This document shows positions 39,055 through 61,495 of a stretch of 64,000 nt of DNA, in pieces. A program made the translations under genes and the position numbers. Below the pieces are notes generated by a model. That model did not search any database and had not been told where the DNA came from. It saw only the letters and a list, made by a program, of their open reading frames with translations. Positions within the stretch are counted from its first letter, which is position 1. Every line of letters begins with the position of its first letter. Origin of the DNA: Mesostigma viride (Eukaryota > Streptophyta > Mesostigmatophyceae > Mesostigmatales > Mesostigmataceae); NCBI GenBank assembly GCA_009746045.1, contig RPFO01000406.1, positions 3,560,701-3,624,700 on the forward strand, written 5' to 3'.

Positions 39055-39510
39055 TAGGGCTGCACGCAAGCTACCTTTCGTAATCTTGCGCAAGTATGGA
39101 ACGCATTTCATTCATCCGTAGGAACGCTGCCCGCCAACTACCCCCGTTCAAAAATTTCCGTCGAACTTTACTTGAGATTTGGAAATCTGAACGTCCGCGC
39201 AAATTTTAGCAGGGCTGCACGCAAGCTACCTTTCAAAATTTTGCGCAAGTATGGAACGCAGTTCATTCGTCCGGAGGAATGCTGCCCGTCAACAGCCCCC
39301 GTTCAGAAATTTCCGTCGAACTTTACTTGAGATTCGGAAATCTGAACGTGCGGTTGGAGTTTCGAGGGGAAGCCCAAGTTCCCCAAGTACTGTAATCCAC
39401 CAATGACGCGCCTCGAACACTTGCCCGCTAAAACCTAAGCAGCCGCTCCGGCTGGCCACATAAACGAAACAAGATGCCGCAGTATCGACACCAGCACCTA
39501 ACCTGAAGTC
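39055..39510 (+). repeat. Partial module P with internal duplication
   Basis: 'gggctgcacgcaagctacc' to 'gaaatctgaacg' occurs twice (about 39055-39205 diverged, and 39206-39350), then module P continues to 39510. This marks the left edge of the macrosatellite. Confidence 0.7.
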
Positions 39511-42185
39511 TCTGATTAATATATATGTATACTAGATCTTGAAATCTATCAATGCAGAGCCATACAGCAGGGAATACCTTTCTTTGACAGAAATGACAAG
39601 AAAACACACAAAATTCTCCAAGTGTCATGCAACACCCCTGGTGTATAGAGCTCCTCATCGGCTAACTGGCCAGTGCCGCGGTACTCGGGTGTTACGGGCC
39701 TGCCATGTGGCAGCTGCACGCCATCTACCTCCGTGAGCTTGAGGACAAACATCAACCTGAGCAGCTGGTGATCTTTGGGAGGACATCCACAGGCTCTCCA
39801 CGGTTGGCAACTATCGACTCATGCCCACAGGCAACAAAGCCAAGAGTCCATGCCTTAGCCATCTCAACTTGGGGCTTTCCTCTCAACTTGGGGCATCATC
39901 TCCACTACCTTGCGCCAAGGTACTGTCAGCCGACTCGTTCCAGGGATCTGATACGTCTGCACCCCCAACAGACGTGGGTCAGACGTAGTTGGGATGATCA
40001 GCGATTGGTTGCTTAGTATCATGTCCCCCTTAATCTGACCCCTCACAGCCCTCACAGTCACACTAAGACCTAGAGGGAGTACTTAGCTCGATATATCTGT
40101 AGGGGGAAACTGCCCTTCCCATCTAGTGCCAACTCTTCAGAGGTTATCCTCACCCCTGCAGGCATGCAGGCATAAGAAATTCTGTCCCGATATGGCAGGC
40201 CCGGAGGCCCCTGAGAACCCTCTACCACACTGAACGTGGTGGGCACCCCCAGAATAGGCACATTCACTTCCCCTCGGATCTTCGAGGACACATTCCCCGA
40301 GATATCAGACACAGCTGGGCAACCAAGGGATGACATCTGCAAGCCTAGCTGCAGCATCTTCTACCCTGAGAATAGACACCTGAGAATTGGTATCCACCTC
40401 TGATGTTGGTGCCCATCATGAGCCCCGCCCCGTGAGCTACCTTAGGAGGAGATAGTTTGGGATCACGCTTGCTGCTAGCTCATCAGTGCTTGGATGACGT
40501 CCGCCATCAGTGGCCCCCTGGGCTGTGGTGCAGCCCTGGCGCCTGCTGGCCTTGCGACAGTTGCTGCAGCAGACTCCTGCTTCACTTACTCCATCCAGGA
40601 CAGACCATCATCCAAGGCATGGAAGGTTAGCTCCTGCTGCCTGGCTCCCATCCAGTTCCTCCCCTTCCCAGGGTGGATCAGGGCCGTCTACAGGACAGAC
40701 TGAATTTGGCCTTCTTTAGTTGACGTGAGCCCAGGACAACCTATACACGTGCCTTGGAACCTTTTCCAAAGCCACCAGACAAGAATGGTTAGCCCCATCC
40801 ACGTAGGTTACCAGCCCATCCTGCCACCTCCCTTGCTTGCCTGATCTTGACAGTTCCTTCCACATCCTGACCCCCAGTCCCATCTGTGGCCTCGGCATCT
40901 AACAGCCCTTGTCCTTCCGCCTTAGCCAGGCAAACACCCTGTCTACCTTCCAGTTACGCATGCATTCACTGTTTCCAAAGAAAGACAACATCCCAAACTG
41001 CAATATGCCAGGGGAGAGATGGCCACACCATCATAGCAGTAGTTTACCCTGTTATATGTGTTCATTGAGAATGATAAATTACGGAGGTGAGATTGGCATG
41101 CAACATAAGGAAAACCCTGAAAAGAAGAATATATGTATATATACCACCACACTAGGTGTGACTGTGATGTCGGCACGCGTCAGGCAGACTGAAGCACGTT
41201 TAAAATGTTTGTTGGACAACCAGTCGCGCTCTGCGATTCTTCATTTTGCGGAAGCTACAAAGTGTAAGAGGTGGTGACCACCGCAAATGGTTTCTGTTTA
41301 GGCTTTCCTATATCCTTGGGGGTAAAAACAAGTGTTCTGTGGAAAAGTCTTGAGTTCATGCATCAAATAGTCTTGTTTTGGACTCTGGCACCAAATTTTT
41401 CTAAATTTAAATTAGGCGCGCCGGATAGATAGACCTAGTACCTTGTACCTGGCCACGTGCTAGTGATCCTCTGAATAATGAGCTGTGCTGTGTGAATCCG
41501 TTTCTGGCCTTGCTTTGCTTTGCTTGCATAACCACAAAACATCAAATTTATGACAATATGCGTGCTGACTCAAGTCATGCACTATAGACTATAATCGCCA
41601 AACTTCAGTCGATCTAAAACATCAAATGGTGATGGATTTTCATGGTTCATGATCCAATCAACCCACTGTCCGTCACGGATTTCAGGAATTTGTTGGCTGC
41701 TAGCCCAGTTCCTCACGCTTTTGTGTCCTTTGGTCCCGTAGCCTGGCCGAAATTTCTTTGATAGGGAAGCGTAATCTCCAGAGACCAAGTCCGGTACTTG
41801 CCAGTTTTTGCTACTTTAAAGGGCTTGGGTACCGCATGCAGCCCCGTGCGCAATTACCGGGACGATTCCTGCAGTTTTGGCTAGAGTTTTTTCGTCAAAC
41901 ATGCTTTGTGCCAAAAGACTTATAGCCAGAACTTGAAGCAGGCACGGTTGCTTGGCACAAGGGCGCTCAGCTGGCAGCCCTTTCAATCCCTTCTAGCAAG
42001 CATTCGTGATGAAGGAACTGCTGCTGCGTTCACGTCTGCACGACGTCAACTCATGTTTTGTGGATTCGAATGACACGTACACATGGCTGCATCTGTTATT
42101 CAATCCATCATGGCTGTCATGTTTGCTGCAAGAAGGCAGCTTTCCTGTTCAAGTTGTGGATCAGGAAAATGTGTGGTAAACTGTT
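39511..42185 (+). repeat. Macrosatellite module Q, copy 1
   Basis: About 2.67 kb from 'ttaatatatatgtatactag' to 'aaaatgtgtggtaaactg'. Near-identical to 44766-47440 and 61496-64000 (cut by the window), and to 51267-53160 with a deletion. Open frames inside are short and carry the same defects in all copies. Confidence 0.9.
40070..40400 (-). pseudogene. Retropepsin-like fragment in module Q
   Basis: Minus strand at 40397-40368 reads VDTNSQVSIL, close to the DTGS active-site box of retroelement aspartic proteases with Gly replaced by Asn. A frameshift later, the 95-codon frame (40357-40070) continues with SDISGNV and LGVPTTFSV, consistent with the flap and core strands. The same defect is present in the copies at 45319-45649, 51822-52152 and 62051-62381, so the fragment was dead before the satellite spread. 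Confidence 0.45.
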
Positions 42186-43394
42186 TAGTAGGGCGTAGGG
42201 CGTAGGGCGTAGGGCGTAGGGCGTAGGGCGTAGGGCGTAGGGCGTAGGGCGTAGGGCGTAGGGCGTAGGGCGTAGGACGTAGGGCTAAGGGCTAAGGGCT
42301 AAGGACTAAGGGCCCGCAGGGCTTAGCGCTTAGGGCTTAGGGCTGAGGGCATAGGGCATAGGGCATAGGGCTTCGGGCTTCTGGCTTCAGGCTTCGTGCT
42401 TAGGTCTTACTTAGGGCTTTGGGCTTAGGGCTTAGGGCTTAGGGCTTAGGGCTTAGGGCTTAGGGCTTAGGGCTAAGGGCTAAGGGCTAAGGGCTAAGGG
42501 CTAAGGGCTAAGGGCTAAGGGCTAAGGGCTAAGGGCTAAGGGCTAAGGGCTAAGGGCTAAGGGCTAAGGGCTAAGGGCTGAGGGCTAAGGGCTAAGGGCT
42601 AAAGGCTAAGGGCTAAGGGCTAAGGGCTAAGGGCTAAGGGCTAAGGGCTAAGGGCGAAGGGCGAAGGGCGAAGGGCTAAGGGCTAAGGGCTAAGGGCTAA
42701 GGGCTAAGGGCGAAGGGCGAAGGGCGCAGGGCTTAGGGCTTAGGGCTTAGGGCTAAGGGCTAAGGGCTAAGGGCTTAGGGCTTAGGGCTCAGGGCTCAGG
42801 GCTCAGGGCTTAGGGCTCAGGGCTCAGGGCTTAGGGCTTCGGGCTTAGGGCTTAGGGCTTAGGGCTTAGGGCTTAGGGCTTAGGGCTTAGGGCTTAGGGC
42901 TTCGGGCTTCGGGCTTAGGGCTTAGGGCTTAGGGCTTAGGGCTTAGGGCTTAGGGCTTAGGGCTTAGGGCTTAGGGCTTAGGGCTTAGGGCTTAGGGCTT
43001 AGGGCTTAGGGCTTAGGGCTTAGGGCTTAGGGCTTAGGGCTTAGGGCTTAGGGCTTAGGGCTTAGGGCTTAGGGCTTAGGGCTTAGGGCTTAGGGCTTAG
43101 GGCTTAGGGCTTAGGGCTTAGGGCTTAGTTAGGGCTTAGGGCTTAGCGCTTAGGGCTTCGGGCTTAGGGCTTAGGGCTTAGGGCTTGGGGCTTCGGGCTT
43201 CGGGCTTCGGGCTTCGGGCTTCGGGCTTCGGGCTTCGGGCTTCGGGCTTCGGGCTTCGGGCTTCGGGCTTCGGGCTTCGGGCTTCGGGCTTCGGGCTTCG
43301 GGCTTCGAGCTTTGGGCTCAGGGCTTAGGGCTTAGGGCTTAGGGCTTAGGGCTAAGGGCTTAGTTAGGGCTTAGGGCTTAGAGCTTAGGGTGTA
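42186..43394 (+). repeat. Heptamer array 1
   Basis: Tandem GGGNNNN units in blocks: GGGCGTA (about 12), GGGCTAA, GGGCGAA, GGGCTCA, long GGGCTTA and GGGCTTC runs. It begins with a conserved junction GGGCCCGCAGGGCTTAGCGC near 42310 and ends with a single true GGGTTTA. Confidence 0.95.
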
Positions 43395-44070
43395 GGGTTT
43401 AGCAAAGTTTGTATATGATGGTCATGGCCTGTATTGACCAAATTTATGCCACTGACAAGTTGATGGCCGTCCCTTGCTCTTGCAAAAGCCCCGCTGAAAA
43501 GATGCCATGACAACTTCATTCTGACGATTCCATGACCGTGCCTTATTTGTACATGATTGGTGCTGGCAGGAACAAGGACGGTCAGCGTGTGGTCAAAGCG
43601 GACAAAGAGAACAACAGCAAACGTTGGCACTGGTGGAGCTGTCGGTAAAGTGACAAATTTGTTGTGAATAATGTGTAATTGTATACCAAGTAGGGAGCTC
43701 ATGAAAGTAAGGAATAGAGAGGTTTACGTAAATAATAACGAACCATTTCTGGCCTTCCCTGGCTTTAAGGCTGCACGCAAGCTACCTTTCAAAATATGGC
43801 GCAAGTATGGAACGCAGTTCATTCGTCCGGAGGAATGCTGCCCGTCAACAGCCCCCGTTCAGAAATTTCCGTCGAACTTTACTTGAGATTCGGAAATCTG
43901 AACGTGCGGTTGGAGTTTCGAGGGGAAGCCCAAGTTCCCCAAGTACTGTAATCCACCAATGACGCGCCTCGAACACTTGCCCGCTAAAACCTAAGCAGCC
44001 GCTCCGGCTGGCCACATAAACGAAACAAGATGCCGCAGTATCGACACCAGCACCTAACCTGAAGTCTCTG
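43395..44070 (+). repeat. Module P, copy 1
   Basis: About 676 bp with a conserved 71-codon plus frame (43671-43886) and a 105-codon minus frame. Other copies are at 50586-51266, 54285-54962 and 60819-61495. No protein family recognised; frames probably open by chance in young copies. Confidence 0.9.
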
Positions 44071-44765
44071 ACTTATATATATTAAAAAATTATAATTACT
44101 TACAGCAGAGTGAAATCACTCAAACCAAAGCAAACGCCCAGCTATAAACCTATATACAGAGCCATGTCAAAGCTCTATACTACGATAAGACCAATGGAAA
44201 CGCCTAACGGGAGGAACCTAATAGCCCTGCTGCACCGCAAAATCAGCCCGCGTACGGCGGAGCATGATGTCAGCCATGGCCCGAGTCAGCGCCACCGACA
44301 AGCGCTGACGCCAATATGACGTCCAGTTCCGCGCCGACCATGGGGCCCGCTGGCCCTCCAGGTCCAGCCGGTCCTCCCGGAGCCGGCAACACTCCTTGAA
44401 GAAGGCGGAGGTCAGGGGCCCCATGGCCCCAAACTCCTCCAGGACAAAGGGCACCACACGATGGTGCCCGACGTCGCCGTAGGCCAGGAGCTTGGCCCGC
44501 TCCGCCCGGTCCGCCGTGTAACCTGCCGTGAGGGAGGCCCCAGCCACGTGGCTAAGAGCCAAGGGCCGCGCCACCGAAACGTCGATAAGCAGATGCCGGC
44601 CACCCCCCTCAAAGTCCAGCACCACAATGTCAGGCCGGTGGTTGGGGGAATAGAAGGCAGCGCCATCCGCATCCTCGGACCGGATGTTCGCGTGGGGGAA
44701 AACCGACCGAATCATGGCGAGCACCACCGTCAGGAGGACAGTGTGCAAATACAAATACCAATTTT
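44071..44765 (-). mobile_element. Module R: nuclease-domain retroelement 3' part inserted at P/Q junction
   Basis: Absent from the P/Q junctions at 39510, 51266 and 61495, so it is an insertion. Its left edge matches the foldback element at 30987. The minus strand encodes (44907-44218 frame) WYLYLHT, EDADGAAFYSPNHRPDIVVL, HLLIDVSVARPL, and a PFVLEEFGAMGP box. Then comes a C-terminal 'YWRQRLSVALTRAMADIMLRR'. The RPD-(x)n-LIDVSV spacing resembles a PD-(D/E)xK-type nuclease. It is 5'-truncated in the window; the RT that normally precedes this domain is not present. Confidence 0.6.
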
Positions 44766-47440
44766 TAATATATATGTATACTAGATCTTGAAATCTATCA
44801 ATGCAGAGCCATACAGCAGGGAATACCTTTCTTTGACAGAAATGACAAGAAAACACACAAAATTCTCCAAGTGTCATGCAACACCCCTGGTGTATAGAGC
44901 TCCTCATCGGCTAACTGGCCAGTGCCGCGGTACTCGGGTGTTACGGGCCTGCCATGTGGCAGCTGCACGCCATCTACCTCCGTGAGCTTGAGGACAAACA
45001 TCAACCTGAGCAGCTGGTGATCTTTGGGAGGACATCCACAGGCTCTCCACGGTTGGCAACTATCGACTCATGCCCACAGGCAACAAAGCCAAGAGTCCAT
45101 GCCTTAGCCATCTCAACTTGGGGCTTTCCTCTCAACTTGGGGCATCATCTCCACTACCTTGCGCCAAGGTACTGTCAGCCGACTCGTTCCAGGGATCTGA
45201 TACGTCTGCACCCCCAACAGACGTGGGTCAGACGTAGTTGGGATGATCAGCGATTGGTTGCTTAGTGTCATGTCCCCCTTAATCTGACCCCTCACAGCCC
45301 TCACAGTCACACTAAGACCTAGAGGGAGTACTTAGCTCGATATATCTGTAGGGGGAAACTGCCCTTCCCATCTAGTGCCAACTCTTCAGAGGTTATCCTC
45401 ACCCCTGCAGGCATGCAGGCATAAGAAATTCTGTCCCGATATGGCAGGCCCGGAGGCCCCTGAGAACCCTCTACCACACTGAACGTGGTGGGCACCCCCA
45501 GAATAGGCACATTCACTTCCCCTCGGATCTTCGAGGACACATTCCCCGAGATATCAGACACAGCTGGGCAACCAAGGGATGACATCTGCAAGCCTAGCTG
45601 CAGCATCTTCTACCCTGAGAATAGACACCTGAGAATTGGTATCCACCTCTGATGTTGGTGCCCATCATGAGCCCCGCCCCGTGAGCTACCTTAGGAGGAG
45701 ATAGTTTGGGATCACGCTTGCTGCTAGCTCATCAGTGCTTGGATGACGTCCGCCATCAGTGGCCCCCTGGGCTGTGGTGCAGCCCTGGCGCCTGCTGGCC
45801 TTGCGACAGTTGCTGCAGCAGACTCCTGCTTCACTTACTCCATCCAGGACAGACCATCATCCAAGGCATGGAAGGTTAGCTCCTGCTGCCTGGCTCCCAT
45901 CCAGTTCCTCCCCTTCCCAGGGTGGATCAGGGCCGTCTACAGGACAGACTGAATTTGGCCTTCTTTAGTTGACGTGAGCCCAGGACAACCTATACACGTG
46001 CCTTGGAACCTTTTCCAAAGCCACCAGACAAGAATGGTTAGCCCCATCCACGTAGGTTACCAGCCCATCCTGCCACCTCCCTTGCTTGCCTGATCTTGAC
46101 AGTTCCTTCCACATCCTGACCCTCAGTCCCATCTGTGGCCTCGGCATCTAACAGCCCTTGTCCTTCCGCCTTAGCCAGGCAAACACCCTGTCTACCTTCC
46201 AGTTACGCATGCATTCACTGTTTCCAAAGAAAGACAACATCCCAAACTGCAATATGCCAGGGGAGAGATGGCCACACCATCATAGCAGTAGTTTACCCTG
46301 TTATATGTGTTCATTGAGAATGATAAATTACGGAGGTGAGATTGGCATGCAACACAAGGAAAACCCTGAAAAGAAGAATATATGTATATGTACCACCACA
46401 CTAGGTGTGACTGTGATGTCGGCACGCGTCAGGCAGACTGAAGCACGTTTAAAATGTTTGTTGGACAACCAGTCGCGCTCTGCGATTCTTCATTTTGCGG
46501 AAGCTACAAAGTGTAAGAGGTGGTGACCACCGCAAATGGTTTCTGTTTAGGCTTTCCTATATCCTTGGGGGTAAAAACAAGTGTTCTGTGGAAAAGTCTT
46601 GAGTTCATGCATCAAATAGTCTTGTTTTGGACTCTGGCACCAAATTTTTCTAAATTTAAATTAGGCGCGCCAGATAGATAGACCTAGTACCTTGTACCTG
46701 GCCACATGCTAATGATCCTCTGAATAATGAGCTGTGCTGTGTGAATCCGTTTCTGGCCTTGCTTTGCTTTGCTTGCATAACCACAAAACATCAAATTTAT
46801 GACAATATGCGTGCTGACTCAAGTCATGCACTATAGACTATAATCGCCAAACTTCAGTCGATCTAAAACATCAAATGGTGATGGATTTTCATGGTTCATG
46901 ATCCAATCAACCCACTGTCCGTCACGGATTTCAGGAATTTGTTGGCTGCTAGGGCTCCAGTTCCTCACGCTTTTGTGTCCTTTGGTCCCGTAGCCTGGCC
47001 GAAATTTCTTTGATAGGGAAGCGTAATCTCCAGAGACCAAGTCCGGTACTTGCCAGTTTTTGCTACTTTAAAGGGCTTGGGTACCGCATGCAGCCCCGTG
47101 CGCAATTATCGGGACGATTCCTGCAGTTTTGGCTAGAGTTTTTTCGTCAAACATGCTTTGTGCCAAAAGACTTATAGCCAGAACTTGAAGCAGGCACGGT
47201 TGCATGGCACAAGGGCGCTCAGCTGGCAGCCCTTTCAATCCCTTCTAGCAAGCATTCGTGATGAAGGAACTGCTGCTGCGTTCATGTCTGCACGACGTCA
47301 ACTCATGTTTTGTGGATTCGAATGACACGTACACATGGCTGCATCTGTTATTCAATCCATCATGGCTGTCATGTTTGCTGCAAGAAGGCAGCTTTCCTGT
47401 TCAAGTTGTGGATCAGGAAAATGTGTGGTGAACTGTTTAG
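44766..47440 (+). repeat. Module Q, copy 2
   Basis: Near-identical to copy 1 over its full length, with a few substitutions and a 3-bp insertion in the 46.95 kb region. Contains the second retropepsin-like fragment (45319-45649, minus). Confidence 0.9.
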
Positions 47441-50400
47441 TAGGGCGTAGGGCGTAGGGCGTAGGGCGTAGGGCGTAGGGCGTAGGGCGTAGGGCGTAGG
47501 GCGTAGGGCGTAGGGCGTAGGGCGTAGGGCGTAGGGCGTAGGGCGTAGGGCGTAGGGCGTAGGGCGTAGGACGTAGGGCTAAGGGCTAAGGGCCCGCAGG
47601 GCTTAGCGCTTAGGCCTTAGGGCTTAGGGCGTAGGGCTTAGGGCTTAGGGCTTAGGGCTTAGCGGTTAGGGTCAAGGGCTTGAGGCTTAGGGCTGAGGGC
47701 TGAGGGCTTAGGGCTTAGGGCTTAGGGCTTAGGGCTTAGGGCTTAGGGCTTAGGGCTTAGGGCTTAGTAGGGCTTAAGGCTTAGGGCTTAGGGCTTAGGG
47801 CTCAGGGCTAAGGGCTGAGGGCTAAGGGCTAAGGGCTGAGGGCTTCGGGCTAAGGGCTGAGGGCTTAGGGCTTTGGGCTTTGGGCTGTGGGCTTTGGGAT
47901 TGGGGATCGGGGATTTGGGCTTTGGGCTTTGGGCTTCGGGCTTCGGGCTTCGGGCTTAGTGCTTTGGGCTTAGGGCTTAGGGATTCGGGCTTAGTGCTTT
48001 AGGCTTAGGGCTTTGGGCTTTGGGCTTTGGGCTTTGGGCTTACGGCTTAGGACTTAGGGCTTAGTAGGGCTTAGGGCTTCGGGCTTAGGGCTTAGGGCTT
48101 AGGGCTTAGGGCTTAGGGCTTAGGGCTTAGGGCTTAGGGCTTAGGGCTTAGGGCTTAGGGCTTAGGGCTTAGGGCTTAGGGCTTAGGGCTTAGGGCTTAG
48201 GGCTTAGGGCTAACGGCTTAGGGCTAAGGGCTTAGCGGTTAGGGCTCAGGGCTAAGGGCTCAGGGCTCAGGGCTCAGGGCTCAGGGCTCAGGGCTCAGGG
48301 CTTAGGGCTTAGGGCTTAGGGCTTAGGGCTTAGGGCTTAATGCTTTAGGCTTAGGGCTTAGGGCTTAGGGCTTAGGGCTTAGGGCTTAGGGCTTAGGGCT
48401 TCAGGCTTAGGGCTTAGGGCTTGGGGCTTAGGGCTTCGGGCTTAGGGCTTCGGGTTTCGGGCTTAGGGCTTCGGGCTTCGGGCTTTGGGCTTTGGGCTTT
48501 GGGCTTTGAGCTTAGGGCTTAGGACTTAGGGCTTAGTAGGGCTTAGGGCTTAGGGCTTAGGGCTTAGGGCTTAGGGCTTAGGGCTTAGGGCTTAGGGCTT
48601 AGGGCTTAGGGCTGAGGGCTTCAGGCTTTGGGCTTTGGGCTTCGGGCTTCGGGCTTGGGGTTTCGGGCTTAGGGCTTCGGGCTTAGTGCTTCGGGCTGCG
48701 GGCTTCGGGCTTCGGGCTTCGGGCTTAGGGCTTAGGGCTTAGGGCTTAGGGCTTCGGGCTTAGGGCTTAGGGCTTAGGGCTTAGGGCTTAGGGCTTAGGG
48801 CTTAGGGCTTAGGGCTTAGGGCTTAGGGCTTAGGGCTTAGGGCTTAGGGCTTAGGGCTTAGGGCTTAGGGCTTAGGGCTTTAGGCTGAGGGCTGAGGGCT
48901 TAGGGCTATTGACTGGCTAACTTAGCGCTTAGAGGTTAGGGTCTAGGGCTTAGGGCTTAGGGCTTCGGGCTTCGGGCTTACGGCTTTGGGCTTTGGGCTT
49001 CAGGCTGAGGGCTTAGTAGGGCTTAGGGCTCAGTAGGGCTTAGGGCTTAGGGCTTACATAGGGCTTAGGGCTTAGTTCTGGCTTCGGGCTTCTGGCTTCG
49101 GGCTTCGGGGTGAGGGCTTAGGGCTCAGGGCTTTGGGATTTGGGATTTTGGATTTGGGATTTGGGATTTGGGATTTGGGATTTGGGATTTGGGATTTGGG
49201 ATTTGGGATTTGGGATTTGGGATTTGGGATTTGGGATTTGGGATTTGGGATTTGGGATTTGGGATTTGGGATTTGGGATTTGGGATTTGGGATTTGGGAT
49301 TTGGGATTTGGGATTTGGGATTTGGGATTCGGGATTCGGGATTCGGGATTCGGGATTCGGGATTCGGGATTCGGGATTCGGGATTCGGGATTCGGGATTC
49401 GGGATTCGGGATTCGGGATTCGGGATTCGGGATTCGGGATTCGGGATTCGGGATTCGGGATTCGGGATTCGGGATTCGGGATTCGGGATTCGGGATTCGG
49501 GATTCGGGATTCGGGATTCGGGATTCGGGATTCGGGATTCGGGATTCGGGATTCGGGATTCGGGATTCGGGATTCGGGATTCGGGATTCGGGATTCGGGA
49601 TTCGGGATTCGGGATTCGGGATTCGGGATTCGGGATTCGGGATTCGGGATTCGGGATTCGGGATTCGGGATTCGGGATTCGGGATTCGGGATTCGGGATT
49701 CGGGATTCGGGATTCGGGATTCGGGATTCGGGATTCGGGATTCGGGATTCGGGATTCGGGATTCGGGATTCGGGATTCGGGATTCGGGATTCGGGATTCG
49801 GGATTCGGGATTCGGGATTCGGGATTCGGGATTCGGGATTCGGGATTCGGGATTCGGGATTCGGGATTCGGGATTCGGGATTCGGGATTCGGGATTCGGG
49901 ATTCGGGATTCGGGATTCGGGATTCGGGATTCGGGATTCGGGATTCGGGATTCGGGATTCGGGATTCGGGATTCGGGATTCGGGATTCGGGATTCGGGAT
50001 TCGGGATTCGGGATTCGGGATTCGGGATTCGGGATTCGGGATTCGGGATTCGGGATTCGGGATTCGGGATTCGGGATTCGGGATTCGGGATTCGGGATTC
50101 GGGATTCGGGATTCGGGATTCGGGATTCGGGATTCGGGATTCGGGATTCGGGATTCGGGATTCGGGATTCGGGATTCGGGATTCGGGATTCGGGATTCGG
50201 GATTCGGGATTCGGGATTCGGGATTCGGGATTCGGGATTCGGGATTCGGGATTCGGGATTCGGGATTCGGGATTCGGGATTCGGGATTCGGGATTCGGGA
50301 TTCGGGATTCGGGATTCGGGATTCGGGCTTCGGGATTCGGGCTTTGGGCTTAGGGCTTAGGGCTTAGGGCTTAGGGCTTAGGGCTTAGGGCTTAGGGCTT

Positions 50401-50585
50401 AGGGCTTAGGGCTTAGGGCTTAGGGCTTAGGGCTTAGGGCTTAGGGCTTAGGGCTTAGGGCTTAGGGCTTAGGGCTTAGGGCTTAGGGCTTAGGGCTTAG
50501 GGCTTAGGGCTTAGGGCTTAGGGCTTAGGGCTTCGGGCTTCCGGCTTCGGGCTTAGCGCTTAGGGCTTAGGGCTCAGAGCTTAGG
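47441..50585 (+). repeat. Heptamer array 2
   Basis: GGGCGTA run (47441-47573), then a mixed zone of GGGCTTA, GGGCTCA, GGGCTTC and GGGCTTT to about 49130. A GGGATTT block (about 27 units, 49134-49326), a GGGATTC block (about 143 units, 49328-50325) and a GGGCTTA block (50347-50530) follow. Carries a 'gactggctaacttagcgc' island near 48910 also found twice in array 4. Confidence 0.95.
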
Positions 50586-51266
50586 GTGTAGGGTTTAGCA
50601 AAGTCTGCGTGTGATGGTCATGGCCTGTATTGACCAAATTTATGCCACTGACAAGTTTATGGCCGTCCCTTGCTCTTGCAAAAGCCCGCTGAAAAGATGC
50701 CATGACAACTTTATTCTGACGACTCTATGAACGTGCCTTATGTATACATGACCGGTGCTTGCAGGAGTGAGGACCGTCAGCGTGTGGTCAAAGCGGACAA
50801 AGCGAACAACAGCAAACGTTGGCACTGGTGGAGCTGGCGGTAAAGTGACAAATTTGTTGTGAATAATGTGTAATTGTATACCAAGTAGGGAGCTCATGAA
50901 AGTAAGGAATAGAGAGGTTTACGTAAATAATAACGAACCATTTCTGGCCTTCCCTGGCTTTAAGGCTGCACGCAAGCTACCTTTCAAAATTTGGCGCAAG
51001 TATGGAACGCAATTCATTCGTCCGGAGGAATGCTGCCCGTCAACAGCCCCCGTTCAGAAATTTCCGTCGAACTTTACTTGAGATTTGGAAATCTGAACGT
51101 GCGGTTGGAGTTTCGAGGGGAAGCCCCAGTTCCCCAAGTACTGTAATCCACCAATGACGCACCTCGAACACTTGCCCGCTAAAACCTAAGCAGCCGCTCC
51201 GGCTGGCCGCATAAACGAAACAAGATGCCGCAGTATCGACACCAGCACCTAACCTGAAGTCTCTGA
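50586..51266 (+). repeat. Module P, copy 2 (P' variant)
   Basis: Shares private changes with the copy at 60819 (for example 'aagtctgcgtgtgatgg' and an 85-codon minus frame), showing alternation of two P variants. Confidence 0.9.
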
Positions 51267-53160
51267 TTAATATATATGTATACTAGATCTTGAAATCTAT
51301 CAATGCAGAGCCATACAGCAGGGAATACCTTTCTTTGACAGAAATGACAAGAAAACACACAAAATTCTCCAAGTGTCATGCAACACCCCTGGTGTATATA
51401 GCTCCTCATCGGCTAACTGGCCAGTGCCGCGGTACTCGGGTGTTACGGGCCTGCCATGTGGCAGCTGCACGCCATCTACCTCCGTGAGCTTGAGGACAAA
51501 CATCAACCTGAGCAGCTGGTGATCTTTGGGAGGACATCCACAGGCTCTCCACGGTTGGCAACTATCGACTCATGCCCACAGGCAACAAAGCCAAGAGTCC
51601 ATGCCTTAGCCATCTCAACTTGGGGCTTTCCTCTCAACTTGGGCCATCATCTCCACTACCTTGCGCCAAGGTACTGTCAGCCGACTCGTTCCAGGGATCT
51701 GATACGTCTGCACCCCCAACAGACGTGGGTCAGACGTAGTTGGGATGATCAGCAATTGGTTGCTTAGTGTCATGTCCCCCTATAATCTGACCCCTCACAG
51801 CCCTCACAGTCACACTAAGACCTAGAGGGAGTACTTAGCTCGATATATCTGTAGGGGGAAACTGCCCTTCCCATCTAGTGCCAACTCTTCAGAGGTTATC
51901 CTCACCCCTGCAGGCATGCAGGCATAAGAAATTCTGTCCCGATATGGCAGGCCCGGAGGCCCCTGAGAACCCTCTACCACACTGAACGTGGTGGGCACCC
52001 CCAGAATAGGCACATTCACTTCCCCTCGGATCTTCGAGGACACATTCCCCGAGATGTCAGACACAGCTGGGCAACCAAGGGATGACATCTGCAAGCCTAG
52101 CTGTAGCATCTTCTACCCTGAGAATAGACACCTGAGAATTGGTATCCACCTCTGATGTTGGTGCCCATCATGAGCCCCGCCCCGTGAGCTACCTTAGGAG
52201 GAGATAGTTTGGGATCACGCTTGCTGCTAGCTCATCAGTGCTTGGATGACGTCCGCCATCAGTGGCCCCCTGGGCTGTGGTGCAGCCCTGGCGCCTGCTG
52301 GCCTTGCGACAGTTGCTGCAGCAGACTCCTGCTTCACTTACTCCATCCAGGACAGACCATCATCCAAGCATGGAAGGTTAGCTCCTGCTGCCTGGCTCCC
52401 ATCCAGTTCCTCCCCTTCCCAGGGTGGATCAGGGCCGTCTACAGGACAGACTGACTTTGGCCTTCTTTAGTTGACGTGAGCCCAGGACAACCTATACACG
52501 TGCCTTGGAACCTTTTCCAAAGCCACCAGACAAGAATGGTTAGCCTCAAGTCATGCACTATAGACTATAATCGCCAAACTTCAGTCGATCTAAAACATCA
52601 AATGGTGATGGATTTTCATGGTTCATGATCCAATCAACCCACTGTCCGTCACGGATTTCAGGAATTTGTTGGCTGCTAGCCCAGTTCCTCACGCTTTTGT
52701 GTCCTTTGGTCCCGTAGCCTGGCCGAAATTTCTTTGATAGGGAAGCGTAATCTCCAGAGACCAAGTCCGGTACTTGCCAGTTTTTGCTACTTTAAAGGGC
52801 TTGGGTACCGCATGCAGCCCCGTGCGCAATTACCGGGACGATTCCTGCAGTTTTGGCTAGAGTTTTTTCGTCAAACATGCTTTGTGCCAAAAGACTTATA
52901 GCCAGAACTTGAAGCAGGCACGGTTGCTTGGCACAAGGGCGCTCAGCTGGCAGCCCTTTCAATCCCTTCTAGCAAGCATTCGTGATGAAGGAACTGCTGC
53001 TGCGTTCACGTCTGCACGACGTCAACTCATGTTTTGTGGATTCGAATGACACGTACACATGGCTGCATCTGTTATTCAATCCATCATGGATGTCATGTTT
53101 GCTGCAAGAAGGCAGCTTTCCTGTTCAAGTTGTGGATCAGGAAAATGTGTGGTAAACTGT
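51267..53160 (+). repeat. Module Q, copy 3, with about 780-bp deletion
   Basis: Lacks the part equivalent to 62775-63556. The junction at about 52545 ('ggttagcctcaagtcatg') sits on a 4-base CTCA microhomology present at both breakpoints in the 61.5 kb copy. Retropepsin-like fragment at 51822-52152 (minus). Confidence 0.85.
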
Positions 53161-54284
53161 TTAGTAGGGCGTAGGGCGTAGGGCGTAGGGCGTAGGGCGT
53201 AGGGCGTAGGGCGTAGGGCGTAGGGCGTAGGGCGTAGGGCGTAGGGCGTAGGGCGTAGGGCGTAGGGCGTAGGACGTAGGGCTAAGGGCTAAGGACTAAG
53301 GGCCCGCAGGGCTTAGCGCTTAGGGCTTAGGGCTTAGGGCTTAGGGCATAGGGCTTCGGGCTTCTGGCTTCAAGCTTCGTGCTTAGGTCTTACTTAGGGC
53401 TTAGGGCTGAGGGCTTAGGGCTTAGGGCTTAGGGCTTAGGGCTTAGGGCTTAGGGCTTAGGGCTTAGGGCTAAGGGCTAAGGGCTAAGGGCTAAGGGCTA
53501 AGGGCTAAGGGCTAAGGGCTAAGGGCTAAGGGCTAAGGGCTGAGGGCTAAGGGCTAAGGGCTAAAGGCTAAGGGCGAAGGGCGAAGGGCGAAGGGCGAAG
53601 GGCGAAGGGCGAAGGGCGAAGGGCGAAGGGCGAAGGGCTAAGGGCTAAGGGCTCAGGGCTCAGGGCTCAGGGCTTAGGGCGAAGGGCGAAGGGCGAAGGG
53701 CGAAGGGCGAAGGGCGAAGGGCTAAGGGCTAAGGGCTAAGGGCTAAGGGCGAAGGGCTTAGGGCTCAGGGCTCAGGGCTCAGGGCTTAGGGCTCAGGGCT
53801 CAGGGCTTAGGGCTTAGGGCTTAGGGCTTAGGGCTTAGGGCTTAGGGCTTAGGGCTTAGGGCTTAGGGCTTAGGGCTTAGGGCTTAGGGCTTAGGGCTTA
53901 GGGCTTAGGGCTTAGGGCTTAGGGCTTAGGGCTTAGGGCTTAGGGCTTAGGGCTTAGGGCTTAGGGCTTAGGGCTTAGGGCTTAGGGCTTAGGGCTTAGG
54001 GCTTAGGGCTTAGTTAGGGCTTAGGGCTTAGGGCTTAGGGCTTAGGGCTTAGGGCTTAGGGCTTGGGGCTTGGGGCTTCGGGCTTCGGGCTTCGGGGTTT
54101 GGGCTTCGGGCTTCGGGCTTCGGGCTTCGGGCTTCGGGCTTCGGGCTTCGGGCTTCGGGCTTCGGGCTTCGGGCTTCGGGCTTCGGGCTTCGGGCTTCGA
54201 GCTTTGGGCTCAGGGCTTAGGGCTTAGGGCTTAGGGCTTAGGGCTAAGGGCTTAGTTAGGGCTTAGGGCTTAGAGCTTAGGGTG
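53161..54284 (+). repeat. Heptamer array 3
   Basis: Same block order and junctions as array 1, including the 'ggacgtagggctaa' and GGGCCCGCAGGG landmarks and the 'cttcgagctttgggctc' end. More GGGCGAA units than array 1. Confidence 0.95.
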
Positions 54285-54962
54285 TAGGGTTTAGCAAAGT
54301 TTGTATATGATGGTCATGGCCTGTATTGACCAAATTTATGCCACTGACAAGTTGATGGCCGTCCCTTGCTCTTGCAAAAGCCCCGCTGAAAAGATGCCAT
54401 GACAACTTCATTCTGACGATTCCATGACCGTGCCTTATTTGTACATGATTGGTGCTGGCAGGAACAAGGACGGTCAGCGTGTGGTCAAAGCGGACAAAGC
54501 GAACAACAGCAAACGTTGGCACTGGTGGAGCTGTCGGTAAAGTGACAAATTTGTTGTGAATAATGTGTAATTGTATACCAAGTAGGGAGCTCATGAAAGT
54601 AAGGAATAGAGAGGTTTACGTAAATAATAACGAACCATTTCTGGCCTTCCCTGGCTTTAAGGCTGCACGCAAGCTACCTTTCAAAATATGGCGCAAGTAT
54701 GGAACGCAGTTCATTCGTCCGGAGGAATGCTGCCCGTCAACAGCCCCCGTTCAGAAATTTCCGTCGAACTTTACTTGAGATTCGGAAATCTGAACGTGCG
54801 GTTGGAGTTTCGAGGGGAAGCCCAAGTTCCCCAAGTACTGTAATCCACCAATGACGCGCCTCGAACACTTGCCCGCTAAAACCTAAGCAGCCGCTCCGGC
54901 TGGCCACATAAACGAAACAAGATGCCGCAGTATCGACACCAGCACCTAACCTGAAGTCTCTG
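54285..54962 (+). repeat. Module P, copy 3
   Basis: Matches copy 1 (43395) almost base for base, including the 105-codon minus frame with one residue change. Confidence 0.9.
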
Positions 54963-55211
54963 ACTTATTTATATTAAAAAATTATAATTACTTACAGCAG
55001 AGTGAAATCACTCAAACCAAAGCAAACGCCCAGCTATAAACCTATATACAGAGCCATGTCAAAGCTCTATACTACGATAAGACCAATGGAAACGCCTAAC
55101 GGGAGGAACCTAATAGCCCTGCTGCACCGCAAAATCAGCCTGCGTACGGCGGAGCATGATGTCAGCCATGGCCCGAGTCAGCGCCACCGACAAGCGCTGA
55201 CGCCAATATGT
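54963..55211 (-). pseudogene. Truncated module R
   Basis: Same left edge and P junction as 44071, but cut at 'cgccaatatg' and joined directly to a heptamer array. The rest of R and an entire Q module are missing, evidently by a deletion. Confidence 0.8.
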
Positions 55212-58200
55212 GGGCGTAGGGCGTAGGGCATAGGGCGTAGGGCGTAGGGCGTAGGGCGTAGGGCGTAGGGCGTAGGGCGTAGGGCGTAGGGCGTAGGGCG
55301 TAGGGCGTAGGACGTAGGGCTAAGGGCTAAGGGCTAAGGGCCCGCAGGGCTTAGCGCTTAGGCCTTAGGGCTTAGGGCTTAGGGCTTAGGGCTTAGGGCT
55401 TAGGGCTTAGCGGTTAGGGTCAAGGGCTTAGGGCTTAGGGCTTAGGGCTGAGGGCTTAGGGCTTAGGGCTTAGGGCTTAGGGCTTAGGGCTTAGGGCTTA
55501 GGGCTTAGGGCTTAGGGCTTAGTAGGGCTTAAGGCTTAGGGCTTAGGGCTGAGGGCTTAGGGCTTAGGGCTTAGGGCTTAGGGCTTAGGGCTTAGGGCTT
55601 AGGGCTTAGGGCTCAGGGCTTAGGGCTTAGGGCTTAGCGGTTAGGGCTCAGGGCTAAGGGCTCAGGGCTCAGGGCTCAGGGCTCAGGGCTCAGGGCTCAG
55701 GGCTTAGGGCTTAGGGCTTAGGGCTTAGGGCTTAGTTAGGGCTTAGTGCTTTAGGCTTAGGGCTTAGGGCTTAGGGCTTAGGGCTTAGGGCTTAGGGCTT
55801 CAGGCTTAGGACTTAGGGCTTGGGGCTTAGGGCTTCGGGCTTCGGGCTTCGGGTTTCGGGCTTAGGGCTTCGGGCTTCGGGCTTCGGGCTTCGGGCTTCG
55901 GGCTTCGGGCTTCGGGCTTCGGGCTTCGGGCTTCGGGCTTCGGGCTTCGAGCTTCGGGCTTCGGGCTTCGGGCTTACGGCTTAGGGCTTTGGGCTTCGGG
56001 CTTCGGACTTCGGGCTTCGGCCTTCGGCCTTCGGCCTTCGGGCTTCGGACTTCGGGCTTCGGGCTTCGGGCTTCAGGCTTTGGGCTTTGGGCTTCGGGCT
56101 TCGGGCTTCGGGTTTCGGGCTAAGGGCTTCGCGCTTAGTGCTTCGGGCTTCGGGCTTCGGGCTTCGGGCTTCGGGCTTCGGGCTTAGGGCTTAGGGCTTA
56201 GGGCTTAGGGCTTAGGGCTTAGGGCTTAGGGCTTAGGGCTTAGGGCTTAGGGCTTAGGGCTTAGGGCTTAGGGCTTAGGGCTTAGGGCTTAGGGCTTAGG
56301 GCTTAGGGCTTAGGGCTTAGGGCTTAGGGCTTAGGGCTGAGGGCTTAGGGCTTAGGGCTTAGGGCTTAGGGCTTTAGGCTGAGGGCGGAGGGCTTAGGGC
56401 TATTAACTGGCTAACTTAGCGCTTAGAGGTTAGGGTCTAGGGCTTAGGGCTTAGGGCTTCGGGCTTCGGGCTTACGGCTTAGGGCTTTGGGCTTCAGGTT
56501 GAGGGCTTAGTAGGGCTTAGGGCTCAGTAGGGCTACAGGTTGAGGGCTTAGTAGGGCTTAGGGCTCAGTAGGGCTAAGGGCTTAGGGCTTACATAGGGCT
56601 TAGGGCTTAGTTCTGGCTTCGGGCTTCTGGCTTCGGGCTTAGGGGTGAGGGCTTAGGGCTCAGGGATTTGGGATTTGGGATTTGGGATTTGGGATTTGGG
56701 ATTTGGGATTTGGGATTTGGGATTTGGGATTTGGGATTTGGGATTTGGGATTTGGGATTTGGGATTTGGGATTTGGGATTTGGGATTTGGGATTTGGGAT
56801 TTGGGATTTGGGATTTGGGATTTGGGATTTGGGATTTGGGATTTGGGATTTGGGATTTGGGATTTGGGATTTGGGATTTGGGATTTGGGATTTGGGATTT
56901 GGGATTTGGGATTTGGGATTTGGGATTTGGGATTTGGGATTTGGGATTTGGGATTTGGGATTTGGGATTTGGGATTCGGGATTCGGGATTCGGGATTCGG
57001 GATTCGGGATTCGGGATTCGGGATTCGGGATTCGGGATTCGGGATTCGGGATTCGGGATTCGGGATTCGGGATTCGGGATTCGGGATTCGGGATTCGGGA
57101 TTGGGGATTGGGGATTGGGGATTGGGGATTGGGGATTGGGGATTGGGGATTGGGGATTGGGGATTTGGGATTTGGGATTTGGGGTTTGGGATTTGGGATT
57201 TGGGATTTGGGATTTGGGATTTGGGATTTGGGATTTGGGATTTGGGATTCGGGATTCGGGATTCGGGATTCGGGATTCGGGATTCGGGATTCGGGATTCG
57301 GGATTCGGGATTCGGGATTCGGGATTCGGGATTCGGGATTCGGGATTCGGGATTCGGGATTCGGGATTCGGGATTCGGGATTCGGGGTTCGGGATTCGGG
57401 GTTCGGGGTTCGGGGTTCGGGGTTCGGGGTTCGGGGTTCGGGGTTCGGGGTTCGGGGTTCGGGGTTCGGGGTTCGGGGTTCGGGGTTCGGGGTTCGGGGT
57501 TCGGGGTTCGGGGTTCGGGGTTCGGGGTTCGGGGTTCGGGGTTCGGGGTTCGGGGTTCGGGGTTCGGGGTTCGGGGTTCGGGGTTCGGGGTTCGGGGTTC
57601 GGGGTTCGGGGTTCGGGGTTCGGGGTTCGGGGTTCGGGGTTCGGGGTTCGGGGTTCGGGGTTCGGGGTTCGGGGTTCGGGGTTCGGGGTTCGGGGTTCGG
57701 GGTTCGGGGTTCGGGGTTCGGGGTTCGGGGTTCGGGGTTCGGGGTTCGGGGTTCGGGGTTCGGGGTTCGGGGTTCGGGGTTCGGGGTTCGGGGTTCGGGG
57801 TTCGGGGTTCGGGGTTCGGGGTTCGGGGTTCGGGGTTCGGGGTTCGGGGTTCGGGGTTCGGGGTTCGGGGTTCGGGGTTCGGGGTTCGGGGTTCGGGGTT
57901 CGGGGTTCGGGGTTCGGGGTTCGGGGTTCGGGGTTCGGGGTTCGGGCTTCGGGCTTCGGGCTTCGGGCTTCGGGCTTCGGGCTTCGGGCTTCGGGCTTCG
58001 GGCTTCGGGCTTCGGGCTTCGGGCTTCGGGCTTCGGGCTTCGGGCTTCGGGCTTCGGGCTTCGGGCTTCGGGCTTCGGGCTTCGGGCTTCGGGCTTCGGG
58101 CTTCGGGCTTCGGGCTTCGGGCTTCGGGCTTCGGGCTTCGGGCTTCGGGCTTCGGGCTTCGGGCTTCGGGCTTCGGGCTTCGGGCTTCGGGCTTCGGGCT

Positions 58201-60818
58201 TCGGGCTTCGGGCTTCGGGCTTCGGGCTTCGGGCTTCGGGCTTCGGGCTTCGGGCTTAGGGCTTAGGGCTTAGGGCTTAGGGCTTAGGGCTTAGGGCTTA
58301 GGGCTTAGGGCTTAGGGCTTAGGGCTTAGGGCGGAGGGCGGAGGGCGGAGGGCGGAGGGCGGAGGGCTTAGGGCTTAGGGCTTTAGGCTGAGGGCGGAGG
58401 GCTTAGGGCTATTAACTGGCTAACTTAGCGCTTAGAGGTTAGGGTCTAGGGCTTAGGGCTTAGGGCTTCGGGCTTCGGGCTTACGGCTTAGGGCTTTGGG
58501 CTTCAGGTTGAGGGCTTAGTAGGGCTTAGGGCTCAGTAGGGCTACAGGTTGAGGGCTTAGTAGGGCTTAGGGCTCAGTAGGGCTAAGGGCTTAGGGCTTA
58601 CATAGGGCTTAGGGCTTAGTTCTGGCTTCGGGCTTCTGGCTTCGGGCTTAGGGGTGAGGGCTTAGGGCTCAGGGATTTGGGATTTGGGATTTGGGATTTG
58701 GGATTTGGGATTTGGGCTTTGGGCTTTAGGATTTGGGATTTGGGATTTGGGCTTTGGGCTTTGGGCTTTGGGATTTGGGATTTGGGATTTGGGATTTGGG
58801 ATTTGGGATTTGGGATTTGGGATTTGGGATTTGGGATTTGGGATTTGGGATTTGGGATTTGGGATTTGGGATTTGGGATTTGGGATTTGGGATTTGGGAT
58901 TTGGGATTTGGGATTTGGGATTTGGGATTTGGGATTTGGGATTTGGGATTTGGGATTTGGGATTTGGGATTTGGGATTTGGGATTTGGGATTCGGGATTC
59001 GGGATTCGGGATTCGGGATTCGGGATTCGGGATTCGGGATTCGGGATTCGGGATTCGGGATTCGGGATTCGGGATTCGGGATTCGGGATTCGGGATTCGG
59101 GATTCGGGATTCGGGATTCGGGATTGGGGATTGGGGATTGGGGATTGGGGATTGGGGATTGGGGATTTGGGATTTGGGATTTGGGATTTGGGATTTGGGA
59201 TTTGGGATTTGGGATTCGGGATTTGGGATTCGGGATTCGGGATTCGGGATTCGGGATTCGGGATTCGGGATTCGGGATTCGGGATTCGGGATTCGGGATT
59301 CGGGATTCGGGATTCGGGATTCGGGATTCGGGGTTCGGGGTTCGGGGTTCGGGGTTCGGGGTTCGGGGTTCGGGGTTCGGGGTTCGGGGTTCGGGGTTCG
59401 GGGTTCGGGGTTCGGGGTTCGGGGTTCGGGGTTCGGGGTTCGGGGTTCGGGGTTCGGGGTTCGGGGTTCGGGGTTCGGGGTTCGGGGTTCGGGGTTCGGG
59501 GTTCGGGGTTCGGGGTTCGGGGTTCGGGGTTCGGGGTTCGGGGTTCGGGGTTCGGGGTTCGGGGTTCGGGGTTCGGGGTTCGGGGTTCGGGGTTCGGGGT
59601 TCGGGGTTCGGGGTTCGGGGTTCGGGGTTCGGGGTTCGGGGTTCGGGGTTCGGGGTTCGGGGTTCGGGGTTCGGGGTTCGGGGTTCGGGGTTCGGGGTTC
59701 GGGGTTCGGGGTTCGGGGTTCGGGGTTCGGGGTTCGGGGTTCGGGGTTCGGGGTTCGGGGTTCGGGGTTCGGGGTTCGGGGTTCGGGGTTCGGGGTTCGG
59801 GGTTCGGGGTTCGGGGTTCGGGGTACGGGGTTCGGGGTTCGGGGTTCGGGGTTCGGGGTTCGGGGTTCGGGGTTCGGGGTTCGGGGTTCGGGGTTCGGGG
59901 TTCGGGGTTCGGGGTTCGGGGTTCGGGGTTCGGGGTTCGGGGTTCGGGGTTCGGGGTTCGGGGTTCGGGGTTCGGGGTTCGGGGTTCGGGGTTCGGGGTT
60001 CGGGGTTCGGGGTTCGGGGTTCGGGGTTCGGGGTTCGGGGTTCGGGGTTCGGGGTTCGGGGTTCGGGGTTCGGGGTTCGGGGTTCGGGGTTCGGGGTTCG
60101 GGGGTCGGGGTCGGGGTTCGGGGTTCGGGGTTCGGGCTTCGGGCTTCGGGCTTCGGGCTTCGGGCTTCGGGCTTCGGGCTTCGGGCTTCGGGCTTCGGGC
60201 TTCGGGCTTCGGGCTTCGGGCTTCGGGCTTCGGGCTTCGGGCTTCGGGCTTCGGGCTTCGGGCTTCGGGCTTCGGGCTTCGGGCTTCGGGCTTCGGGCTT
60301 CGGGCTTCGGGCTTCGGGCTTCGGGCTTCGGGCTTCGGGCTTCGGGCTTCGGGCTTCGGGCTTCGGGCTTCGGGCTTCGGGCTTCGGGCTTCGGGCTTCG
60401 GGCTTCGGGCTTCGGGCTTCGGGCTTCGGGCTTCGGGCTTCGGGCTTCGGGCTTCGGGCTTCGGGCTTCGGGCTTCGGGCTTCGGGCTTCGGGCTTCGGG
60501 CTTCGGGCTTCGGGCTTCGGGCTTCGGGCTTCGGGCTTCGGGCTTCGGGCTTCGGGCTTCGGGCTTCGGGCTTCGGGCTTCGGGCTTCGGGCTTAGGGCT
60601 TAGGGCTTAGGGCTTAGGGCTTAGGGCTTAGGGCTTAGGGCTTAGGGCTTAGGGCTTAGGGCTTAGGGCTTAGGGCTTAGGGCTTAGGGCTTAGGGCTTA
60701 GGGCTTAGGGCTTAGGGCTTAGGGCTTAGGGCTTAGGGCTTCGGGCTTCGGGCTTCGGGCTTCGGGCTTCGGGCTTAGCGCTTAGCGCTTAGGGCTTAGG
60801 GCTCAGAGCTTAGGGTGT
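55212..60818 (+). repeat. Heptamer array 4 (longest, internally duplicated)
   Basis: Starts like array 2. Two consecutive supersegments of about 2.0-2.2 kb (about 56375-58385 and 58386-60600) each run from a 'taactggctaacttagcgc' island through ordered blocks: GGGATTT, GGGATTC, GGGATTG, GGGATTT, GGGATTC, GGGGTTC, GGGCTTC, GGGCTTA. GGGGTTC blocks span about 57385-57944 and 59330-60133. Very few off-pattern bases (for example near 59823 and 60103). Confidence 0.95.
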
Positions 60819-61495
60819 AGGGTTTAGCAAAGTCTGCGTGTGATGGTCATGGCCTGTATTGACCAAATTTATGCCACTGACAAGTTTATGGCCGTCCCTT
60901 GCTCTTGCAAAAGCCCGCTGAAAAGATGCCATGACAACTTTATTCTGACGACTCTATGAACGTGCCTTATGTATACATGACCGGTGCTTGCAGGAGTGAG
61001 GACCGTCAGCGTGTGGTCAAAGCGGACAAAGCGAACAACAGCAAACGTTGGCACTGGTGGAGCTGGCGGTAAAGTGACAAATTTGTTGTGAATAATGTGT
61101 AATTGTATACCAAGTAGGGAGCTCATGAAAGTAAGGAATAGAGAGGTTTACGTAAATAATAACGAACCATTTCTGGCCTTCCCTGGCTTTAAGGCTGCAC
61201 GCAAGCTACCTTTCAAAATATGGCGCAAGTATGGAACGCAGTTCATTCGTCCGGAGGAATGCTGCCCGTCAACAGCCCCCGTTCAGAAATTTCCGTCGAA
61301 CTTTACTTGAGATTTGGAAATCTGAACGTGCGGTTGGAGTTTCGAGGGGAAGCCCCAGTTCCCCAAGTACTGTAATCCACCAATGACGCACCTCGAACAC
61401 TTGCCCGCTAAAACCTAAGCAGCCGCTCCGGCTGGCCGCATAAACGAAACAAGATGCCGCAGTATCGACACCAGCACCTAACCTGAAGTCTCTGA
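60819..61495 (+). repeat. Module P, copy 4 (P' variant)
   Basis: Pairs with copy 2 (50586) by private variants. Confidence 0.9.

Follow-up and report, generated by a model that had tools for sequence, protein, structure and literature searches.

At the end of a Mesostigma viride contig, four arrays of telomere-like heptamers of the form GGGNNNN are embedded in a tandemly duplicated unit. The stretch analysed, here called the window, comprises the last 64,000 bases of contig RPFO01000406.1 (C1435; 3,624,700 bp), and its final base is the final base of the contig. We read the arrays as an interstitial, telomere-like heptamer minisatellite inside this duplicated unit, grown by mutation of the four-base loop, slippage and unequal exchange, and assign this reading a probability of roughly 0.72. 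It draws on the order of the repeat blocks, the kinship of the arrays, an array-free site in relatives and the kinds of units that expand. Genome-wide searches covered the assembly of 440 Mb in 2243 contigs. The RuBisCO large-subunit gene on contig C996 has the Chlamydomonas structure 1gk8 as its best PDB hit, consistent with a green alga.

Arrays were detected with Tandem Repeats Finder and by a direct unit parse that split the sequence at each G-run. A first-pass annotation of the window had described four arrays of about 11 kb, and these were recovered with a total length of 11,118 bp. All are read on the forward strand: array 1 at 42189..43402 (1214 bp), array 2 at 47441..50598 (3158 bp), array 3 at 53165..54294 (1130 bp) and array 4 at 55212..60827 (5616 bp). 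The parse yielded 1474 tokens, among which GGGCTTA (351), GGGATTC (219), GGGCTTC (202), GGGGTTC (191) and GGGATTT (125) were the commonest. The pure blocks of tens to more than a hundred units that had been reported are real in the assembly, the longest exact runs being GGGATTC x143, GGGGTTC x78 and x70, and GGGCTTC x65. The proposed series GGGATTT, GGGATTC, GGGGTTC, GGGCTTC, GGGCTTA occurs twice, both times inside array 4. Its first copy consists of GGGATTT x44 (56663-56970), GGGATTC x18 and x20, GGGGTTC x78 (57398-57943), GGGCTTC x44 (57944-58251) and GGGCTTA x11; the second has GGGATTT x31 (58770-58986), GGGATTC x19 and x15, GGGGTTC x70 and x39, GGGCTTC x65 (60134-60588) and GGGCTTA x21. 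The GGGATTC part of the series is interrupted by some short GGGGATT/GGGATTT units. Just 2 of the 120 possible orders of these five units contain one-base steps throughout, namely a single path in either direction.

Single-base stepping between neighbours extends to the arrays as a whole. It was found at 127 of 159 transitions (80%) between adjacent different heptamer runs. Steps of random size, the outcome against which the claim had been set, do not describe the data: 2000 shuffles of the run order gave a mean of 44%, and none reached the observed 127/159. Considering runs of at least 8 units only, 20 of 28 steps were one-base steps (shuffled mean 38%; 0/2000 shuffles reached the observed value), and when the chain was closed over dropped irregular spacer units the one-base share was 60-79% per array. 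The arrays are copies of one another, so the 159 transitions are not independent and the independent evidence is smaller. Counting each kind of border once, the window arrays and a linked array on contig C2111 (see below) hold 12 distinct kinds between blocks of at least 3 units, and 11 of these 12 are one-base steps. Rare marker units also reappear in matching order from one duplicated array to the next. A coding origin was considered and rejected: no listed open frame spans a whole array. In the pure blocks of arrays 2 and 4 none of the six frames meets a stop, as expected of a 7-bp repeat. Rfam matches at gathering score within the window numbered 0.

What the first-pass annotation had not noticed is that the four arrays are near-identical copies with common edges, carried by a tandemly duplicated unit that continues up to the contig end. 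Their existence stands, but they do not count as four independent cases, given the near-identical duplicated flanks and the same edge units. With the arrays masked, long flank pieces aligned mutually at 95.7-99.8%. Every array starts with a GGGCGTA block and ends with GGGTGTA GGGTTTA, followed by GCAAAGT. They form two sister pairs, a short type (arrays 1 and 3) and a long type (arrays 2 and 4).

The layout of the unit was obtained by self-comparison. The left half of copy 1 (39213..42188) ends ..GTTTAGTA directly 5' of the first GGG. Array 1 follows, with GGGCGTA x11 at its edge, GGGCTAA/GGGCGAA blocks, GGGCTTA x30, GGGCTTC x15 and the right edge GGGTGTA GGGTTTA. Its right flank (43403..44287), whose first letters are GCAAAGT, is 99.7% identical to 54295-55179 and 95.7% identical to 50599-51277 over 680 bp. 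The left half of copy 2 (44765..47440) matches copy 1 at 99.5% (39516-42147 = 44765-47399) and leads into array 2, whose blocks include GGGATTT x24 (49156-49323), GGGATTC x143 (49324-50324) and GGGCTTA x26 (50346-50527). Next come the right flank of array 2 and a shortened left half of copy 3 (50599..53164), which is without the stretch equivalent to 40795-41568; here 50599-52548 equals 60828-62778 at 99.5%, and 52545-53125 equals 41569-42149 at 99.8%. The right flank of array 3 (54295..55211) runs straight into array 4, with no left half of the unit between them, and array 4 itself contains an internal duplication of about 2 kb. Behind it, 60828..64000 holds the right flank and, truncated where the contig stops, the left half of a further unit copy (61193-64000 = 39213-42016 at 98.9%). 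The last 200 bp of the contig are identical to 41817-42016, and the contig end falls about 170 bp short of the expected start of the next array.

Within the unit, 39533-40293 in the left half of copy 1 is a fragment of a dispersed repeat, with 1113 first-look candidates in the genome; 40 were scored, and 35 of these 40 lie outside the cluster at 74-78%. The sequence 44287-44764, between copies 1 and 2, does not belong to the unit; array 4 is fused close to its edge. It is part of a minus-strand open frame of 230 aa (44221-44910) without a Pfam match. A Pfam scan of 10 open frames of the window gave 0 families over the cut-off for this frame and for 40903-41274, the two in or beside the unit.

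The site of the array is preserved without an array elsewhere in the genome. Searched with the left flank, the genome yielded nothing beyond four cluster positions and two partial copies, located on C2111 at 357300 and 1215254. Both partial copies cross the array position without an array, reading ..GTGCATAGTA-TGCAAAGTC..; the cluster reads ..GTTTAGTA-[array]-GCAAAGT... Similarity of the array-free copies is 88-94% to the left flank and 74-79% to the right. They indicate that the array is an insertion or expansion at one point, located within a few bases. Insertion into older sequence with an empty site in relatives, a hallmark of interstitial telomeric sequences, is thus seen here in two copies. 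Composition from the telomere unit of the species, another such hallmark, is lacking, with 0 inner GGGTTTA units in the window arrays.

Comparison of the copies showed that block order is largely conserved between duplicated arrays and that block lengths have changed greatly. The right flanks of arrays 2 and 4 differ at 8/1950 sites. GGGATTC forms a run of x143 in array 2 and runs of x18+x20 and x19+x15 in array 4; GGGGTTC numbers 0 in array 2 and 78(+1) and 70+39(+3) in array 4. The flanks of arrays 1 and 3 differ at 1/581 and 3/885 sites, and 14 of their 37 matched runs are unequal in length. Run order is imperfect: these 37 matches stand among 50 runs in array 1 and 46 in array 3, and 54 matches were obtained among 119 runs of array 2 and 83 runs of the first part of array 4. 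Between arrays 1 and 2, 11/2632 sites differ on the left and 28/679 on the right (Fisher p 5.6e-12); restricted to the nearest left sequence the contrast is 4/579 vs 28/679 (p 9e-5). This unequal divergence of the two sides probably reflects exchange at or within the arrays. In array 4, the left edge directly abuts a right flank that is truncated. The differences between copies match the expectation from slippage and unequal exchange; the individual events we infer. A spatial record of successive mutation and expansion, as had been suggested, fits the one-base steps and the blocks that are private to single copies. The segmental duplication provides natural replicates of one array, so that the divergence of the flanks can serve as a yardstick for block order, changes in length and founding mutations.

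The array continues beyond the window. Genome-wide, (GGGCTTA)4 has 348 forward and 280 reverse matches. Of the forward matches, 212 lie in the window and 131 on a 24-kb contig, C729; all reverse matches (79 + 145 + 56 = 280) lie at the end of C2111. Three contigs thus hold 623 of the 628 matches, the other 5 being unplaced. On C2111 (1,236,974 bp) the right flank is found at 1219747-1220124, followed by array to the contig end, with a run of N between. In reverse orientation, C2111 starts inside an array and then enters the right flank. Reversed C2111 supplies the array and right flank without which C1435 ends, which points to a single cluster whose arrays all run the same way. Probably, the window arrays, C2111 and C729 are one cluster that broke the assembly. 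C729 is a second assembly of the C2111 array, or an allele: 110 of 120 C729 runs match the C2111 array in order, 98 of them equal in length, and the large blocks common to both agree within 2 units (60/61, 80/79, 26/28). Agreement is poorer in the final part of C729. Individual blocks differ in their distribution. The pattern ATTCGGG x4, equivalent to a GGGATTC repeat and used as the backward-read control for (GGGCTTA)4, has 200 forward and 2 reverse matches in the genome; the window holds 200 forward matches, so the GGGATTC block is almost private to it. GGGCTTT x4 has 2 matches in the window, 192 on C729 and 8 + 253 + 40 on the C2111 stretches read. GGGSTTC x4, which covers GGGCTTC, GGGGTTC or mixtures, has 365 forward matches (325 in the window, 3 on C729, 12 on contig C1391 and 25 unplaced). 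From this distribution, arrays own private blocks, yet GGGGTTC has expanded at least once elsewhere. Towards its end, the C2111 array is a mixed, indel-rich variant array.

The units that found blocks share an intact G-tract. In the window and C2111 arrays, runs of at least 5 units were reached by 14 of 36 unit types with intact GGG and by 0 of 34 G-broken types (Fisher p 2.7e-5). All 14 types reaching such runs carry GGG, and recurrent G-triplets with short loops are typical of G-quadruplex minisatellites. Among one-step neighbours of expanded types the counts were 13/32 intact vs 0/24 broken (p 2.3e-4), and for the window alone 11/29 vs 0/25 (p 4e-4). Changes at G positions account for 0 of the 12 border kinds vs 10 of 34 kinds of isolated one-base variants. 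For this test 148 units of irregular length were left out, 2 of whose 146 runs are repeats of 2; the unit types are not fully independent and the distal end of C2111 is noisy. That G-broken units hardly ever found blocks suggests that expansion depends on the G-tract. Length instability dependent on G-triplets, as in the yeast minisatellite CEB1, would agree with these counts (14/36 vs 0/34), which are a sequence correlate only.

A second locus was found with the GGGSTTC pattern at C1391:1541097-1541201, unrelated to the cluster. In the 1 kb read there (C1391:1540701-1541700), GGGGTCA x>=29 (at least 29, at the left edge of the stretch) is followed by GGGGTCC x25, an irregular step, GGGGTTC x15, GGGGTTT x3 and unique sequence. 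All three of its borders between one-base neighbours lie outside the G-tract. A general scan for heptamer arrays (GGGV plus 3 bases, 5 units) returned 39,394 + 38,904 matches vs 49,369 + 52,739 in a backward-read control, poly-G-like sequence being dominant. A genome-wide rule for unrelated loci, by which only a unit with intact GGG founds a block, beside a parent one loop base away, is put forward tentatively and may well not hold. If it were true, a reader of the G-tract (G-quadruplex, telomere-binding protein or telomerase) would drive expansion and the arrays would be ordered records. The rule would also extend to natural sequence the yeast finding that G-triplets are needed for minisatellite instability without Pif1.

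The sequence of events that we propose would start with the insertion of a short telomere-type stretch into an older sequence, at the junction of TAGTA and GCAAAGT; array-free relatives of that sequence survive. A point mutation would then arise in the four-base loop of one unit, and replication slippage together with unequal exchange would multiply the mutant locally, so that it forms a block next to its parent. Whole unit-plus-array segments would be duplicated by exchange inside arrays and from one array to another. The G-tract would be needed for expansion, for example via slippage provoked by G-quadruplexes. Such slippage may be the likeliest mechanism because of the CEB1 result: in pif1-deleted yeast, G-mutated arrays rearranged in 1/383 colonies vs 38/343 (PMC2673046). 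The process bears on the conversion of telomere-like repeats into satellites and on the question of why one mutant repeat spreads and another does not.

Several points weigh against this account. Array lengths and block order have the assembly as their sole source. Two toy slippage models produced long runs and one-base steps, and arrays 1-3, with 5, 3 and 2 block-to-block borders, fall within or near their range; array 4 has 16 such borders vs model means of 0-4.25, and most model settings place some borders in the G-tract. Given this shortfall, simple neutral slippage alone does not reproduce the pattern. The G-broken types GGCCTTC x3 and GCGCTTA x2 expand a little, and G positions are hit by a fair share of the isolated one-base variants (10/34 unique kinds), so that the G-tract rule could reflect age or selection instead of mechanism. 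The dominant unit GGGCTTA is not canonical, which is why telomere origin is something we infer. GGGTTTA blocks on C2111 sit in the noisy, indel-rich contig end, and the matching edge unit there is GGGTATA, not GGGTTTA.

The relation to the telomere bears directly on an alternative in which the arrays are an ordinary G-rich minisatellite without telomere ancestry. Chance slippage would have produced it, and the likeness to the telomere would stem only from the readiness with which G-rich heptamers with a 4-base loop expand. The C1391 locus, built of GGGGTCA and similar units further from TTTAGGG, and the many G-rich simple repeats in the genome agree with this alternative, which we regard as possible though doubtful. 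It is opposed by GGGTTTA at the right edge of 4/4 window arrays and in blocks of the linked array, and by interstitial TTTAGGG arrays elsewhere, such as the 37 units at C1:1158867 beside a GGGGCTTA unit. As had been stated in the first-pass annotation, the exact telomere unit is almost absent from the window, where GGGTTTA occurs 0 times as an inner unit and only as the last unit at the right edge; the statement fails on linked C2111, where (GGGTTTA)4 is found at 16 places and exact blocks reach x7. A search of the genome for the true telomere repeat, which had been proposed, recovered long perfect TTTAGGG arrays (8343 + 10839 overlapping matches to a 28-unit pattern), and because such arrays exist TTTAGGG is presumably the telomere of this species. 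A telomere origin is suggested by the likeness of the units, by GGGTTTA at the array edge and by the blocks of GGGTTTA on C2111, and the earlier idea of a satellite that evolved from the telomere repeat fits the array-free empty site and these blocks.

The 37 perfect TTTAGGG units on C1 (stretch read, C1:1157367-1160387) lie far from contig ends. This array starts with the GGGGCTTA unit and adjoins another tandem repeat with longer units.

A terminal or subtelomeric origin, with the arrays as the degenerating inner portion of a telomerase-built chromosome end, possibly copied from altered templates, is improbable. The units do resemble TTTAGGG, the G-rich strand points to the C1435 contig end, and similar variant arrays flank Arabidopsis telomeres (PMC11406999). 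However, C1435 has no terminal TTTAGGG: its last bases are non-telomeric sequence of the unit. C2111 breaks off within a mixed variant array, and its arrays point away from its own contig end. Both contig ends lie in the cluster and would join into a single internal one, with which they are compatible, and the earlier label 'subtelomeric' is not supported. Sharp differences in block length between copies with nearly identical flanks are also unlike a template change. An artefact, in which the blocks are nanopore repeat-calling errors or the assembler invented lengths and order, is more improbable still: base-callers are reported to convert telomere repeats into other pure repeats (PMC9414165), contigs break at the arrays and the C2111 end is indel-rich, but the error repeats reported there (TTAAAA, CTTCTT, CCCTGG) differ from the array units, rare marker units keep their order across duplicated arrays, and C729 repeats the C2111 array, a support that is not fully independent since C729 may derive from the same reads.

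Outside the unit, the window contains further repeats. Minus-strand frames at 5708-6462 include a zinc knuckle (PF00098; 5708-6130, E 1.9e-6), the only match over the cut-off in the Pfam scan, and a weak Retrotrans_gag match below it; they are probably a retrotransposon remnant. A direct repeat of 454 bp, 100% identical, occupies 35161-35614 and 36638-37091, and a further identical pair lies at 36513-36639 and 37120-37246. In 17866-24164, repeated segments of about 88-98% similarity form a cluster with CCCA microsatellites; the complement of these microsatellites recurs as GTGG at 31704-31882.

Literature matches to the GGGCTTA repeat or its complement, sought as six 14-letter windows, comprised 2 papers, apparently only marker papers. 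Replicated arrays of such block size, one-base stepping and a G-tract limit on expanding units were not found in the literature surveyed. The growth process is already known from plant telomere-adjacent arrays, as described for Arabidopsis (PMC11406999); what is new is the size of the blocks, their occurrence in replicated arrays and the G-tract rule. Both the Arabidopsis arrays and those of the window show head-to-tail variants of about 7 bp, local monomer homogenisation (a unit x15 in the example there), higher-order repeats and non-telomeric fragments duplicated with the repeats, and slippage with unequal crossing over was proposed there. The window arrays thus share the homogenised monomers and higher-order repeats of chromosome-end variant repeats. 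In Arabidopsis the arrays adjoin terminal telomeres, the longest variant array measures 3,384 bp, and no unit is more frequent than the canonical one (20.7%). Here no terminus is seen, arrays reach 5.6 kb and runs 143 units, and canonical units occur in the window arrays at the edge alone. Telomeres of C. reinhardtii (TTTTAGGG) are reported with about 90% canonical repeats (PMC6549138). Cycads likewise carry non-terminal arrays of TTTAGGG substitution variants, judged unlikely to be products of distinct telomerase activities (PMC9827991), but as megabase pericentromeric blocks in which variants reportedly intermingle, unlike the compact cluster of pure, ordered blocks described here. Double-monomer arrays of Chenopodium also alternate homogeneous blocks of the telomere unit and a derivative (PMC10521516); those are TTTAGGG/TTTAAAA at chromosome ends, for which a nanopore-artefact origin is disputed, whereas the window has loop variants and one-base steps. 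Short interstitial telomeric sequences formed by break repair (PMC6410037) resemble our locus in the insertion of telomeric repeats into pre-existing sequence and the empty site in relatives, and differ in being described as a limited number of canonical units where the arrays here are expanded and diversified. Like CEB1 (PMC2673046), which is stabilised by G-triplet mutation in pif1-deleted yeast, the window arrays are length-unstable tandem arrays of G-triplets; CEB1 has a 39-base unit and was tested by experiment, and the heptamers described here offer its counterpart as a correlate in natural sequence.

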